The notes under the pieces: model-generated
Database searches by the model: none
What the model was told of the DNA's origin: nothing
What the model saw: the letters and a program-made list of their open reading frames with translations, nothing else
Program-made: the position numbers and the translations under genes
Assembly: GCA_947623655.1 (NCBI GenBank)
Contig: CANQHG010000002.1
Location: forward strand, 50,550-114,549
Source: an uncultured Clostridia bacterium
Lineage (GTDB): Bacteria; Bacillota; Clostridia; Christensenellales; Borkfalkiaceae
Reading direction: 5' to 3'
DNA: 64,000 nt
Shown: piece by piece, positions 1-52,684 of the stretch
Numbering within the stretch: the stretch's first letter is position 1
Layout of the letters: every line of letters begins with the position of its first letter

Positions 1-570
1 GTTCACCGTATAATCCGCTATGGGCGGCGTATATCCGTCTATTGTAAATGAGGCAGTGCTCTTATAATCCACGTTGGAAGGGCTCAGCGTCACTCTCAGC
101 GTTTTACCCGCTTCCACCTCCATGGAGATAACTTTCGTGAACGTTTGAATACCACACCAAGAAGCCTCTTCTTCGTCTTCTGTATCACAAATCGAACCAT
201 CGTATTGAACCGTAAGCGAGGTTTTTCCATCTTTCAAATCCGCTGTAAAACCTGCGGTAAAGCTGCCACTCTTTGTGAAAGTTAAATCAATAACTTTATT
301 GCCGTATTCCGCGTCCGCAGCATTGGCATAAAAACAGTCTCGGGACATGTCATATGCCCAAGGCGTATCACCGTCGGCGATATATTGGCCTTCATATCCA
401 TTTTCAGGATCGGCAAAAGAATAGTTTTTGCCGTCATATCCCGCGATAATGAACTCCGCAGGGGTGGATTCGCCGCTTGCGTCTATCATAAAGGGCATGC
501 TGATTCCCGCCCCTAAGACTATGATAAAACAGCCAAACAGGATCCCAAGCAACTTCTTTCTGATACTCAT
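1..570 (-). CDS. Putative secreted/surface protein, N-terminal part (gene runs off the left edge)
   Basis: Frame open from ATG (revcomp 568-570) to window edge, 190 codons with no stop: MSIRKKLLGILFGCFIIVLGAGISMPFMIDASGESTPAEF...; N-terminal signal/TM segment; RBS-like gggagaaaggat upstream. Missed by the ORF track because no stop lies in the window. Confidence 0.75.
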   Translation of the reverse strand, partial: MSIRKKLLGILFGCFIIVLGAGISMPFMIDASGESTPAEFIIAGYDGKNYSFADPENGYEGQYIADGDTPWAYDMSRDCFYANAADAEYGNKVIDLTFTKSGSFTAGFTADLKDGKTSLTVQYDGSICDTEDEEEASWCGIQTFTKVISMEVEAGKTLRVTLSPSNVDYKSTASFTIDGYTPPIADYTVN

Positions 571-584
571 ATCCTTTCTCCCTT

Positions 585-601
585 TGTTCATTTGTTGAAC
601 A
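585..601. promoter_or_regulatory. Inverted repeat TGTTCA-TTTGT-TGAACA, possible operator or leader hairpin
   Basis: Perfect 6-bp arms between the -10 (618-623) and the start codon (570). Confidence 0.4.
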
Positions 602-617
602 TTTGTTTCCATTAAAT

Positions 618-649
618 ATTATAGCATATTCTCCCCCCCCCATTGTCAA
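618..649 (-). promoter_or_regulatory. Sigma-A-type promoter with poly-G(9) spacer
   Basis: -35 TTGACA (revcomp 644-649), extended -10 TGCTATAAT (TATAAT = revcomp 618-623), 20-nt spacer containing nine G (C tract 633-641). Confidence 0.7.
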
Positions 650-736
650 TAATATTGAAGCACTTTCTTCACTCAAAGTTTTATATTTTTTATTTTAAAA
701 TCTTTTCACCGCCCCTACTGCCTACAAAAATGGCCT

Positions 737-42700: not shown

Positions 42701-45419
42701 CAAGAGTCTTTCTCGGCTCATATCTTTCACCGACGTAGTAAACGGTGATGAGAGTTTCTTCTTGCAGTCCAAACATGATGACTTCAACGGTATAAGGTTC
42801 GCCATACTCCGTGCCGTCTACGTAAATATGTACGGTATAACTACCGGCAGGAGTTTTGCCGTTGGCGTTCTTAAAGATATTGGTGTCATCAACAAAGGAA
42901 TATTTTTGCTCGCCTTGGAAAAGTTCAAAGGTATAGTCGCCCGCCTGAAGCGTTTCATCTTCTCTGCGGTCGCTTTCATAATCCTTTTTCACGATAAGGC
43001 CGTTTGTATCAAAGGCATGGCCGACGTAGAATTTCTTTGTCGCGTTTGTGCTATCAACCGTAATAGTAAACTTTGTAGAGTCCCAAATCGCCGTGACGGT
43101 GACATCGGCATTGACAGTGATCTCCGTACCCGCCATTTTCTCTTCGCCGTTCACGTTCCAGCCGTAGAATTCCCAACCCTCGGCAGCTGCGAGCGCATCG
43201 GGAAGCTTCACCGTGAGGCCTTTATCCCCTGTCTTGGCGGCGGGAGCCTGAACGTCTGCCGCGGCATGATTATTTTCGCCTTCGCCGAGCGAATAGGTAA
43301 CGGTGACTTGTTCGATCCAAGTTGCCGTGTAGGTGACGGTAACGTCGGCATGCGCAAGCGTGAGGGTGAGAGCACCTTCGTTATTCACGAATTCGGCGCC
43401 GCTGACTTCAACCGTCCAACCCGTGAAACGGAACTTCGTTTTTGCGGGATCTTGCGGTTTGGCGACGGTGGCCGTTGCGCCGTTTTCGCTCCTTGTAACT
43501 TCGGGCGCGGCGACGTTTTCGGCTTCCTTAAATACAAATTTGATCTCGACCTGCTCGGCGTTGAACGCGATCTCGATATTCGCCTCGTTGATCGTGACCT
43601 TATAAGCGCCGCTTCCATCGGCCGTGAGCGTTTCTGTGCCGTTCATGACTGTGACCTTATAGCCCGCATCCACTTCGAGCGTGAAAGTCACCTCGGTATC
43701 GTTGTGCAAATAGCCCTCTTGGGAGAACGTGGCCTTGACATGATCGTTCTGTTGCGCCGTGACGGTGTAGAGCTGTTCCCACTGCGCCGTGATCGTGGTG
43801 TTGGCGGTAATCTGAACTTGCGCATCGGCCTCTTGCAACTCTTCGGCTTCGCCGACTTTCCAGCCGAGGAACTCGTGGCCTTCCCATACGGGCGCCGCGG
43901 GCAGAGTATAGGGCACCTGCTCGGTCGCCGTATCCGCTTTATCCTCGGTCCCGTTGCCGTATACGATCGTCACATTGTATGTATGAGGGATCACTTTAAC
44001 GGTGTAGGTCGCAGTTAAATTTCCTTTCTCGTAGGAGACGGTAACTGTGAACTCGCCCGCCTTTGTCATATCGGGGGTGTATGTTACTTTGTAATCCTCC
44101 GCGTCGAGGGCTCTCTCGGAGTCGTCGTCGTAGACAACGGCAACGGTGAGACCGTCGGTGGAGAATTCATCGCCGATATAATACTCGGCCGTATACCCGC
44201 TCAGCTTGAGGGACTTCATCACCCAAATCGTGGGTGTGCCGTTTACATTGCGCCAATAGTCGCTTTCGTCTGCGGGCGTCGCCGCGGAGAAGTAGTAGAC
44301 GTGAACCCCGGGAAGCTTATCGGCAAAAGAAGTGAGCCAATTCTCCGAAGTTCCGTAGTAGAACCAGGCGATCTCGCCGAGCCCCGTGAGCCCGCCGATG
44401 TCGGTGTAAACGTTTTCGCCGATCACGGGAAGCACAACGCCTTTTAGAGCGGAGCATCCTGCAAATGCATCTTGGCCGACGGTTTTGAGCGTGGCGGGAA
44501 GTTCCACAAAATCGAGCGCGTCGAGGCCTTTGAACGCGCCGTCCGCAATAACGAGGGTGCCGTTATTTACAGTGTACTTATATTGACCCCCCCCGTTTTC
44601 CAAAGCGGTTGCAGCGCGGGCCAGACGGGGCGCGGGTACAGGTGCAACCTCGGCAACTTTCACTTTGAGGAGGAATTTGCCGTTATAGAGCGAGTCGAAC
44701 TGCTCGCCGTCTGTCCAGCTCTTTTCTTCCCATGCGGTGCCCGTGAAAGCGTCTTCACCGACGGAGACGACCGTTTCGGGAATGGTAACATCGTCGAGAG
44801 CGGAGCAATCTTTAAATGCGTTCGCGCCGATCGTCTCGGTGCCGTCTTGCAGCTCGAGCTCTTTAATGCCCGTGCAGCCCGCAAACGCGTTGTCGCCGAT
44901 CTCCGCAGTGCCCTGAATCGTCACGTCCGTGATCGTGGTGTTGCCTGCGAAAGCGTTTTCCGCGACGACGACCTTTTTGCCGTTGTATTCCTTGGGAATG
45001 ATAACTTCGGTCTCGGGAGAATCCTTTACGCCCTGAACGACCACTACGGGATTTTTGGGATCGGAATTATCTTCCTGCAAACTGAATGCGACTTTCTTGC
45101 CGCAGATGTTACATTCGCCTTTCCCCAAGTCGACGTCGTGCGAGGTGCCGTCGGCGGGAATGGTGTAGGTGTAACCCTGCCCGCAGACCGTGCAAAAATG
45201 CATGCCGACGCCGGGCGTCACGCATGTCTGCGGATAAATGATGTAGCCGTTGTCTTCGCTGAAGTCATGCTCCGTGCAAGGCTGCGAAGGGCCGGGATTT
45301 TCGTCCGCATGCGCCGTCGCACTGCGGTTGAACGCGATCCCCGCCACGGCGAGCATCACACAGAGCAAGAACGAAAGGACGAAAACGGTTGATTTTTTGA
45401 GCGTTGAATGTTTGCCCAT
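39735..45419 (-). CDS. Large secreted surface protein: N-terminal CxxC module, LRR_5, InlB and bacterial Ig-like repeats
   Basis: Start at MGKHSTLKKSTVFVLSFLLCVMLAVAGIAF (RBS aaggag); CTVCG/CNICG; LRR_5 AFAGCTGIKELELQDGTETIGANAF; InlB YTLPAAPVWEGHEFLGWKVGE; paralogue of the 45689-52684 product. Confidence 0.9.
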   Translation of the reverse strand: MGKHSTLKKSTVFVLSFLLCVMLAVAGIAFNRSATAHADENPGPSQPCTEHDFSEDNGYIIYPQTCVTPGVGMHFCTVCGQGYTYTIPADGTSHDVDLGKGECNICGKKVAFSLQEDNSDPKNPVVVVQGVKDSPETEVIIPKEYNGKKVVVAENAFAGNTTITDVTIQGTAEIGDNAFAGCTGIKELELQDGTETIGANAFKDCSALDDVTIPETVVSVGEDAFTGTAWEEKSWTDGEQFDSLYNGKFLLKVKVAEVAPVPAPRLARAATALENGGGQYKYTVNNGTLVIADGAFKGLDALDFVELPATLKTVGQDAFAGCSALKGVVLPVIGENVYTDIGGLTGLGEIAWFYYGTSENWLTSFADKLPGVHVYYFSAATPADESDYWRNVNGTPTIWVMKSLKLSGYTAEYYIGDEFSTDGLTVAVVYDDDSERALDAEDYKVTYTPDMTKAGEFTVTVSYEKGNLTATYTVKVIPHTYNVTIVYGNGTEDKADTATEQVPYTLPAAPVWEGHEFLGWKVGEAEELQEADAQVQITANTTITAQWEQLYTVTAQQNDHVKATFSQEGYLHNDTEVTFTLEVDAGYKVTVMNGTETLTADGSGAYKVTINEANIEIAFNAEQVEIKFVFKEAENVAAPEVTRSENGATATVAKPQDPAKTKFRFTGWTVEVSGAEFVNNEGALTLTLAHADVTVTYTATWIEQVTVTYSLGEGENNHAAADVQAPAAKTGDKGLTVKLPDALAAAEGWEFYGWNVNGEEKMAGTEITVNADVTVTAIWDSTKFTITVDSTNATKKFYVGHAFDTNGLIVKKDYESDRREDETLQAGDYTFELFQGEQKYSFVDDTNIFKNANGKTPAGSYTVHIYVDGTEYGEPYTVEVIMFGLQEETLITVYYVGERYEPRKTLVLLEYWDNGQTAEWKGEGVFNVFESNQNVTAGDRIFTQEDVERGSIEFVVTRAEQNVKYTVVVKPLSEATYNGIELNTEKVQNNFTEGDELTYDNLVVTAKYTGVKNAENEPREFSIVLTEGYSVLADGLDEERKLTTASQTVTVTYQDQTATYNITVESKPLALLSSVTVALKEEKTFYTGDTLTAQDLTVMAHFGEDDVREVFDYTLSIEKDGKVIENAFTEEGTYTIKVTYQYGEVSQTGEYTLEVQFTGLKVEVLKSFHVGDTLTKSDFTVTYYPRAGEPVVQTNVIMRVGAPGGIDPMETYKFEEAKTFTVYLLVYLTVGGDATTSFDIEVAPAEGESETFAVTLTVNNGGNEGNTAELDPKEGDAIAKDTQMTLTITLQQGYTVEVKINDEPVDLQGALTYTITVDAAKSIVVTFTQSGEEPPQVKNLEITSIIQYGGEWISVTMSHEDMQSIQDIVKSVRVNGTLQSGNDFVVARDVQFNIHAIRAPEPYPETYTFIFYSDDAGQTEIARAVYPKTDKQPSDVQFKVENAGEGNTAALESESYFIGDVVKINLTIAEGYIAIIDDDGVTKILQSGETSYETLEIGAQKSLTVTFERKPEEYDFYFPHANGTARTEYIVFLRFFDKEGKPVQLETEPVVTANYTRGSQSGEATVAVEYATDAYKISMTVNGLPSDSEVTELAYKIQAKGIDASEKSVSFGSSYSNLWKGETDEYRLYNSDGKIQNYGNENTEARATYYDIYNAEDIADANDAWFDNSDFTIKAMPLLYRVEKSEIATLDLLKYTLSVYGIQGQRRLMLLVYQTDTVDGVVRSSSMNDHTLSNIFTFEIGTEHDYDYLFAAPNKAQAQDNGNDAIEFVRGGIEKWGFSNAGDVFTKGIAERILFKLTKGDDAIYLALYWENENNLVIYQLDGEEGNKKEEIKKEITGGVTNGYLVYSGFNDWIKTLDNKYSDFAIEDKSWKISTKIIIKKDNGVYLYDGEWSE

Positions 45420-51600: not shown

Positions 51601-52684
51601 TTGTGCCCTTGTAGAAGATCTTGACGCCCAGACCGTTGAGCCCTGCGACGTTCTGATAGGCGTCCGCGGCGTCTTCGGGAATGGCTTCGATGATCACGCT
51701 CTCCAGAGCGCAACCCTTGAATGCGTCTGCGCCCACAGTTTTGAGGCCTGCGGGAAGCGTGACTTGGGTGAGAGCGGTGAGGCCTTCGAACGCGCCGTCT
51801 GCAATGACGAGCGTGCCTTCGCTTACAGTATATTTACCCCCCCCGTTTTCCGCGTTCTCGCGAAGAGGTCTGCGGCCCAAAGGCTGCGCGGGCGTCACAT
51901 CTGCGGCGCTCACCTTGAGAAGATATTGCCCGTCTTTGTCCGCAAGAACTTTAAAACCGCTTTCGGTTTTCCAGTTCGCGGGAGTTGTATAGAATTCCGT
52001 TTCGGCAAATGCGTTCCGACCGACGGAAGTGACCGTAGAGGGAATGTCGACTTCGCTAAGAGCATCGCACCCGTTGAAAGCGTTCTCTCCGATCGTCTCG
52101 GTGCCTTCTTGAATGGTGAGCTTTGAAAGGCTTGTGCACCCCGCGAACGCGCTCTCGCCGATCGAGGCAGAGCCTTTAATCGTCACGCTTGTGATCTTTT
52201 TGTTGCCCGCGAAAGCGTTTTCCGCGACATGGACGGGCTTTTCATCGATCTTTTCGGGAATGACAATAGAGGTCAATTCGGAGTCTTCGGCGGGAACGCC
52301 CTTGACGACGACTTCCTCTTCGGTGCTCTGCTCTTCGTCAACAATATAGTTGATGCCCGTTTTATGACAGATAGAGCACTCGCCGACCTCATTGACCTTG
52401 TGAGAGTACCCGTTTGCGGGAATGATGACAGAGACGCCCTCGCCGCAGTCGGGATCGGTGCAATATTTCATGCCGACGCCGGGAGCGACACAGGTTGGCT
52501 TGTAGATAACATACACTTCATCGCCGAGCGTATGCTCGTGCGGTTGCGACGTGCCCTCTTGCTCATCGAGCGCGTTTGCATGCGTGCTGAGGCCGAGAGA
52601 GATCCCTGCCGCGGCAAGAAGCACACACATGAGCGCCGACATGACGAAAAGCGCAAGTCTGTTGAGCGTTAAATGTTTCTTCAT
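45689..52684 (-). CDS. Giant surface protein: CxxC module, LRR_5, InlB repeats, OB-fold-like and atrophied-Ig-like regions, C-terminal TM
   Basis: Start at MKKHLTLNRLALFVMSALMCVLLAAAGISLGLSTHA (RBS aaggag); C-terminal GLWIAFGSVGAVVIALGSLALVFVLRKKNN; no LPxTG motif. Confidence 0.9.
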   Translation of the reverse strand: MKKHLTLNRLALFVMSALMCVLLAAAGISLGLSTHANALDEQEGTSQPHEHTLGDEVYVIYKPTCVAPGVGMKYCTDPDCGEGVSVIIPANGYSHKVNEVGECSICHKTGINYIVDEEQSTEEEVVVKGVPAEDSELTSIVIPEKIDEKPVHVAENAFAGNKKITSVTIKGSASIGESAFAGCTSLSKLTIQEGTETIGENAFNGCDALSEVDIPSTVTSVGRNAFAETEFYTTPANWKTESGFKVLADKDGQYLLKVSAADVTPAQPLGRRPLRENAENGGGKYTVSEGTLVIADGAFEGLTALTQVTLPAGLKTVGADAFKGCALESVIIEAIPEDAADAYQNVAGLNGLGVKIFYKGTTLPEALQSTGNTLYLFSQDEPLQRGNYWYEKEGEPVIWPLLRTENPLELKDYKTEFKKGEPFSSEGLVVTAYYENGDVLTLQPAETTSHGFYTIDSSAYRSDAINESFSIVITYLYEKITYQVTVGDAYIITIEYGNGQPNGTASVTSGEKYTLPAAPVRTGYTFLGWKVGEDAALQQPAARIDVTANITIAAQWQVKTPALAFDLGADVTNAAQLSFAYGELSTHEDGSEYYTVTLTGTPERTGYKFLNWTSSLNDATPQAVEGNSFEIALADEMNVKIGAEWEQLYTVTAATAAHLTITIENPAAYYEKGAAVTFTITVENGFKLGTVSVGTLENGKYTLTVGTENITITATAVEVAINASITGESGGAELGVARSENGATATVTVGTPQRAGYRFDGWTITVTGAEHQVAEDGSTTTLTLANSDVTVTYEAKWTQVFALSVSAENAAVAYNGEKTQYVVGDTVTITIAPNADYILDGEIAVTGAKNFNVQGNVVTITFTAEDSATVTVTATLVRVYKVTLDQETYTGATVSLDPAQETYKSGSTVTLKIEVTEGYKLKSLKFNTTDKLSEFTGNSYEFQVTENITIEIEIVAVYSVTYTAEDMTGVENMPEAETEIETFTLPAKVPTKTAEDKEYTFLYWYYKSGEEEIQVGESFDLAAAAGESHALTLYAKFAETHTAKTTIPDYAKGKGWKNGTQYETIELDNNIIVTAVKTTSSNNNTGKYYDNNSGNGETGKGEWKLYQTEGPELTFKAENDAKIVSIKITYNQEQGGILLSSDKDKKNTYKSGDLIQVNADKVVLNVGNEGTANKGQVKITAIEVVYSGGIYLSNADKAENALQAIQLDTTEKLTKDLALPTSTVPEVTFKWTVEVTTQGVDPNVATIDAENGILKITQTAEKVVLQLVAHAYIGEQEFGNGRSFTLTIEAKEQLDPNVANFDFSTNFETYAKTDWSSYGTKTVDFTAIGMEAGENATGLSGQVEFSKVSKQSNTIKDCPVMVANESTVYVTVELGEQEERTITAFEFGLKQWGTKKFSDIHLEYKNGAEWLSCSDNLIKKNGNQAFGDELSITTISSNQVITDAKQVRLSITTTLSSNQQIGIASMKLTVATPDPDVIAAQKALAEAQSQIDTFRETLNNSENTSETLTLPENSNDVQFAWTLTDNGNGVAALADGKTLTVTFAEEARDVTLKVTATCNGQNAEATFTLHVPAHVTLTGDGSSNNPFTVADALKLAGGLTQGSYYNDGAEVYVKGFVIVRGEWSTKNNNIINAKIADSADEPADKGILVFGLEPDGTILKSYDDFEVGAEIVLKGYITNYNGTLEITYYNNVNVTATYYKKSVSTHEHVWEYQYSSDLKHTRVCNVPDCPLKQEVQTENCNCEAGVCVNCQHKALQDETLTALKGLAADASLNGTYELTGTVSSDGVTKTGSEGDWQFNITVNGTEIMVYYASHDVVKATTLEKGDLVTVVGSLTNYQGKTLEFKAGSKITDWQKSDQQKVDAVEEAIGNIVPKTFTENYTLPTLESLNLADYLTANVSITWEVSVTTDGADPESAKIVDGVLQIKRGETDIVCQLIAKITSGNIQAHETSITITISAQSSGGGEGGGDEVETKSLTLTNSNFGLTTSYGDNTTGYDVEEGGTKSGIKISYVQLLDNNYKGTHSIQGNKSKKSNLQNTTAFPGKITSVVLTPFKPGSGKATAEIKCSFGTDTSCSGSSSTGKPYDSTTTGDLTFKPQAGESCTFFKLEWTAEASYYTAIVINYEAPTTSGGGGGETEPGEKQPITVTLTAGTNSLNLTGNSGYTPNNQAHVVDEISFTTYQVMLMDGDKMQFQRGKGYIHNDEAFPGRITKIEIVKTDGNVTLSLGTSSGSINTSKDLPYTAADGDNYTFFEIKADDSTTPKLTSIKITYETASADQGMEGPSMTAAVANVNTNGVNGAVSGLWIAFGSVGAVVIALGSLALVFVLRKKNN

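Follow-up and report, generated by a model that had tools for sequence, protein, structure and literature searches.

A poly-G spacer promoter before a giant surface-protein gene, one of a clade-wide set of candidate slippage promoters in gut Clostridia

Bacterial promoters are built around two boxes at a near-constant distance. On the minus strand of the DNA analysed here (a stretch of 64 kb, referred to as the window), an exact TTGACA and an exact TATAAT are held unusually far apart by a spacer that contains nine consecutive Gs. Is the tract incidental, or does its length decide whether the giant gene behind it is transcribed? The locus comprises the following features.

644–649, minus strand: -35 box TTGACA, an exact consensus, assigned by consensus match alone
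633–641, minus strand: G9 tract GGGGGGGGG within the spacer, the proposed slippage site, read from the sequence
624–643, minus strand: 20-nt spacer between the -35 and -10 boxes, read from the sequence
618–626, minus strand: extended -10 element TGC-TATAAT (TGC at 626–624, TATAAT at 623–618)
About 573–583, minus strand: purine-rich AAAGGGAGAAAGG, a probable ribosome-binding region, judged from the sequence
1–570, minus strand: 5′ part of the driven gene, encoding an MBG-repeat surface protein, which runs past the window edge (about G000:C2:38341-51119)

Read on the minus strand, the order is TTGACA, AT, GGGGGGGGG, AGAATATGC and TATAAT; the 20 nt are counted between TTGACA and TATAAT, with the extended -10's TGC counted in. 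This direct reading bears out the boxes, the nine Gs and the 20-nt spacer claimed in a preliminary description of the locus, together with its arithmetic, by which removal of 2 or 3 Gs gives 18 or 17 nt. The G count was taken from a single assembly of metagenome-like character (43 contigs) and could be wrong by one G, an error that is possible for assembly-derived tract lengths generally. No G/C run in the 64-kb window exceeds G9, and all others of at least 7 lie within long open frames. A homopolymer of slippage-prone length thus lies between exact TTGACA and TATAAT boxes, the arrangement expected of phase variation by promoter-spacer repeats. A standard promoter scan did not detect this promoter because it admits spacers of 16–18 nt only.

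The driven gene starts with an ATG at 570–568 (minus strand) and encodes a protein of 4259 amino acids with 14 MBG_2 stretches plus MBG_3, a signal-like N-terminus (MSIRKKLLGILFGCFIIVLGAG...) and a C-terminal hydrophobic segment followed by RRKF. By these sequence features the product is a membrane-anchored giant surface protein, in support of the surface location that had been proposed for it. A second promoter of the same kind, with G8 and a 19-nt spacer, lies approximately 14.5 kb away on the same contig; the boxes of the two paralogous promoter regions are identical, and the regions share 85% identity over around 200 bp. The gene behind the G8 promoter has about 4072 codons and 13 MBG_2 stretches. 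Upstream of the window promoter, at about 733–792, is a dispersed repeat of around 50 bp (CCTCTCATGGAGGTACTGTCGCCGCAGGCGACTGAGGTGGGC), which has some 30 copies or part-copies in the genome and is also present in related genomes.

How unusual is a 20-nt spacer? In G015 and G018, which belong to the genus, 141 ordinary exact-box promoters were counted: 10 had a 16-nt spacer, 122 one of 17 nt and 9 one of 18 nt, so that the window spacer is 3 nt above the length found in 122 of 141; none of the 141 was at 14, 15, 19 or 20 nt in a search that permitted those lengths. The 129 poly-G promoters among the matches listed for the genus (within-genome duplicates removed) were distributed as follows: 5 at 13 nt, 5 at 14, 27 at 15, 26 at 16, 9 at 17, 16 at 18, 26 at 19, 11 at 20, 2 at 21 and 2 longer, giving peaks at 15–16 and 18–19 nt with a trough at 17 between them. 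The 17-nt share was 9 of 129 (7%) versus 122 of 141 (87%) for ordinary promoters (Fisher 4e-44, from sites that are not fully independent), and 78 of the 129 listed poly-G promoters (60%) fell outside 16–18 nt, where there was no ordinary promoter. Shuffling tract lengths among the listed sites gave an expectation of 18.2 promoters at 17 nt against the 9 observed (P 0.004); the deficit is therefore not an effect of composition. The trough at 17 nt was repeated in a sample of the order, and 11 of 118 matches listed in a broader genome scan had 17 nt, the genus set, order sample and broader scan partly overlapping in species. Poly-C promoters with at least 8 Cs also cluster at 16 and 19 nt. To us these distributions indicate that the prevailing state is kept away from the optimum, in most cases within one to three slips of 17 nt.

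A different account of the same numbers is that the promoters are static: the helical geometry of G-rich DNA would make long-G spacers work at other lengths, and the tract would be no switch. Poly-G spacers do peak away from 17 nt, and in genome G002 nearly all of 19 related lipoprotein promoters carry G8 (15 nt), a near-uniformity that looks steadier than free switching would give and appears maintained. However, there are two peaks with a trough at 17 nt and not one shifted optimum, so a single geometry-shifted optimum does not fit, and homologous promoters span 13 to 20 nt. We consider a static promoter unlikely.

Close copies of these promoters differ in tract length between conserved flanks, in comparisons made between species or paralogues with one genome per species. 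Beyond the G9/G8 pair, the promoters of two sister species (L291 and L292) can be aligned over around 340 bases with a handful of substitutions, and their sole indel is one G, which gives spacers of 16 and 17 nt. Three orthologues of a lipoprotein gene (L276, L293 and L294) have spacers of 14, 15 and 16 nt, and the only promoter-proximal indels are at the tract edge. Paralogous promoters in G192 carry G11 and G12, and homologues of the window promoter in G026 carry G10 with 17 nt and G8 with 13 nt. In G109, a more distant homologue lacks the tract and reads as an ordinary-looking TTGACA-17-TATGAT.

These comparisons also bear on the idea that the extended -10 element, TGC-TATAAT, frees the promoter from its -35 box, so that tract length hardly matters. 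The element is present in the window promoter and its paralogue, and an extended -10 occurs in a minority of other sites (43 of 127 listed poly-G sites at 13–21 nt). Yet the exact TTGACA is kept in both own paralogues and in G026 while the tract and the downstream spacer differ, and most poly-G promoters among the matches listed are without TGn. Independence from the -35 box is very unlikely on this evidence, although the extended -10 may confer some activity at any spacing.

Two promoters with shorter tracts were noted alongside these. In L326, L327 and L329, a conserved promoter whose G7 tract is fixed and whose spacer measures 19 nt precedes the gene of a signal-peptide protein of around 630 amino acids; its G7 is the same length across the species seen, unlike the longer tracts. 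At about 1660–1715 of L305 (G000:C11 near 9164), a unit of around 22 bp (the G tract plus AGAATATGTTGTATA) of a G7 promoter is tandemly duplicated; this promoter precedes a signal-peptide gene that is related to the gene behind a G8 promoter on contig C10.

To what extent is the arrangement shared? The 1.66-Mb genome of the window contains approximately 21 distinct G runs of at least 8, five of which lie closely 3′ of TTGAC in a promoter-like context; all five precede genes with a signal-like N-terminus. Enrichment was measured by pattern searches with reversed-pattern controls. TTGACN{0,14}G6N{1,16}TANNNT had 12 matches (several per site) in the own genome versus 0 when reversed, and TTGACAN{0,12}G7N{0,11}TATAAT had 213 matches, which came from 74 of the 103 genus genomes searched, with 0 for the reversed pattern. 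A chance origin of the promoter poly-G is ruled out by these controls. A looser poly-G pattern was present in 92 of the 103 genomes, and its poly-C counterpart was rarer (33 of 103). With a slightly looser pattern, 46 of 248 genomes sampled from the order were positive and reversed matches were 0; the positives were concentrated in a few families (the own family, f1, and f19, f32 and f28). In a sample of 300 genomes from the phylum, 11 were positive, including that of the window, and there were 4 reversed matches. The counts are restricted to certain clades, so poly-G promoters are a trait of particular clades. Viral contigs yielded just 8 matches to the pattern. MutS of the genus is 59–60% identical to that of Candidatus Borkfalkia and 45–50% identical to those of the other families of the order that were compared, so that the genus probably belongs to the Borkfalkia family or lies close to it. 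In a scan of named genomes, read as the matches listed and not as a census of taxa, exact-box poly-G promoters were also found in Saccharibacteria, Candidatus Ancillula, Streptobacillus notomytis and uncultured Bacilli (L147–L266); among the matches listed, the pooled set has a similar trough at 17 nt.

The tract could instead be a binding site or structural signal, for a regulator or as a G-quadruplex, and not a length adjuster. The excess of coding-strand poly-G over poly-C (92 versus 33 of 103 genomes) and the G7 promoter with unchanged spacing in several genomes are in keeping with such a role. The tract, however, starts at any distance of 0 to 10 nt from the -35 box and ends 0 to 10 nt before the -10 box among the matches listed, and because its position is free a fixed regulator site is weakened; poly-C versions have similar off-length spacers, and because these counterparts exist a strict strand-specific or G-quadruplex role is weakened too. 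A signal of this kind is highly improbable. Scarcely credible is an assembly or sequencing artefact, in which the tract would be real, its length wrong and the true spacer optimal: the assembly is metagenome-like and homopolymers are error-prone (PMC4577077 gives a caution on their lengths in short-read drafts), but 74 of 103 genomes share the tract pattern while the reversed control had no match, and a systematic miscount would need to steer clear of a 17-nt total at sites with different flanks.

Which genes stand behind these promoters? By a simple home-made hydrophobicity rule, a signal-like N-terminus was called in 56 of 87 genes behind poly-G/C promoters versus 9 of 33 behind ordinary promoters (P 4e-4). 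Pfam matches in 67 driven proteins included ABC_tran (10), List_Bact_rpt (8), collagen (6) and InlB-type repeats (4), with 3 each for BspA LRR_5, Big_2 and DUF975; most of the driven genes encode lipoproteins, repeat adhesins, ABC exporters and membrane proteins. On the hydrophobicity rule and Pfam together, the promoters control surface or host-facing genes, as is usual for phase variation. In contrast, a conserved C7 promoter of a ribosomal-protein gene, which we take from its sequence to be L13/rplM, keeps C7 and 17 nt in seven genomes.

G runs also occur within coding sequence in the window. Two consecutive genes for giant proteins with BspA-type LRR and InlB repeats (1905 and 2350 amino acids) contain coding G8 runs at 44587–44594 and 51837–51844 (minus strand); a change of one G in either direction would cut each product short at around 300 amino acids, which makes the runs candidate translational switches.

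We therefore return to the reading in which the window promoter is a phase-variable spacer promoter that changes by slippage and belongs to a clade-wide off-length set, to which we assign a probability of roughly 0.8 (0.82). The spacer switch put forward as a candidate in the preliminary description gains support from the G8/G9 paralogues, from the tract differences between species and from the genus-wide recurrence before surface genes, all of them properties of assembled sequence. Under this reading, 618–649 (minus strand) would be a housekeeping-type promoter in which the G tract sets the distance between the -35 and -10 boxes, and slipped-strand mispairing during replication would add or remove Gs. 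In the assembled state (G9, 20 nt) the boxes would be too far apart, so that most cells should make little or none of the giant surface protein; shortening the tract by two or three Gs, to a spacer of 18 or 17 nt, would raise transcription, reversibly. The same would hold across the set, which mainly drives lipoproteins, repeat adhesins and ABC exporters and whose commonest assembled state appears to be off the optimal length. Expressing cells would form a minority, which would be of benefit when the immune system, phages or nutrient supply exert pressure. That slippage is responsible, that the change is reversible, that transcription depends on spacer length and that a benefit follows is what we infer from these patterns, and the spacer distribution lends indirect support to the dependence on length. 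Loss of mismatch repair as a cause found no support: the window's genome carries mutS1, as do the poly-G-rich relatives tested, and a general repair defect is therefore not implied.

With less confidence, although we lean towards it, we suggest that in this genus and several families of the order much of the variable surface proteome is governed by default-off slippage promoters that selection keeps off-length, and that populations carry rare expressers of many surface proteins, a form of combinatorial bet-hedging. That 74 of 103 related species together hold over 200 promoters of this type suggests group-wide switching of surface genes by gain and loss of Gs. Phase variation in gut commensals has so far been known mainly through invertible promoters. 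If the reading is true, there would be a second, sequence-readable switching system in largely uncultured bacteria, the on and off states of which could be scored by G counts in ordinary metagenomes, and many surface genes would be predicted, from assembled genomes, to be silent or weakly expressed in the majority of cells.

Related systems are known from other bacteria. Treponema pallidum has poly-G upstream of its tpr genes, which resembles the present case in placing the tract near surface-antigen promoters and differs from it in concerning few genes of a spirochaete. In Neisseria meningitidis, opc undergoes phase variation through a homopolymer in its promoter spacer. PMC5084427 relates that spacing by a homopolymer between the -35 and -10 boxes decides expression of porA (van der Ende 1995), and a 17-bp spacer gives high expression of FetA (PMC4577077). 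For NadA of the same species, a change in repeat number alters promoter spacing and expression; as described in PMC2791445, this system differs in that a tetranucleotide repeat upstream of the core promoter acts via the NadR repressor, with no tract in the -35/-10 spacer. Deep sequencing of Bifidobacterium breve has revealed replication slippage at G tracts in pilus genes, and the same study briefly notes that such tracts also occur in promoter spacers (PMC9187656). This is likewise a G-tract system of a gut commensal; unlike here, the demonstrated tracts sit between two reading-frame parts of a pilin gene, making the control translational, and the phylum is unrelated. Literature searches, with most subscription papers outside their coverage, returned no report of such promoters in this clade. 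The promoters described here share with porA, opc and fetA a G/C homopolymer between the -35 and -10 boxes of a surface-protein gene. Those systems comprise few genes, belong to a Gram-negative pathogen and have been shown to switch, whereas the present set, read from assembled sequences, is genus-wide in gut Clostridia and systematically off 17 nt. Because the mechanism is established in Neisseria and nothing was found for this clade, the class of mechanism is known, and the scale, the clade and the off-centre default look new.
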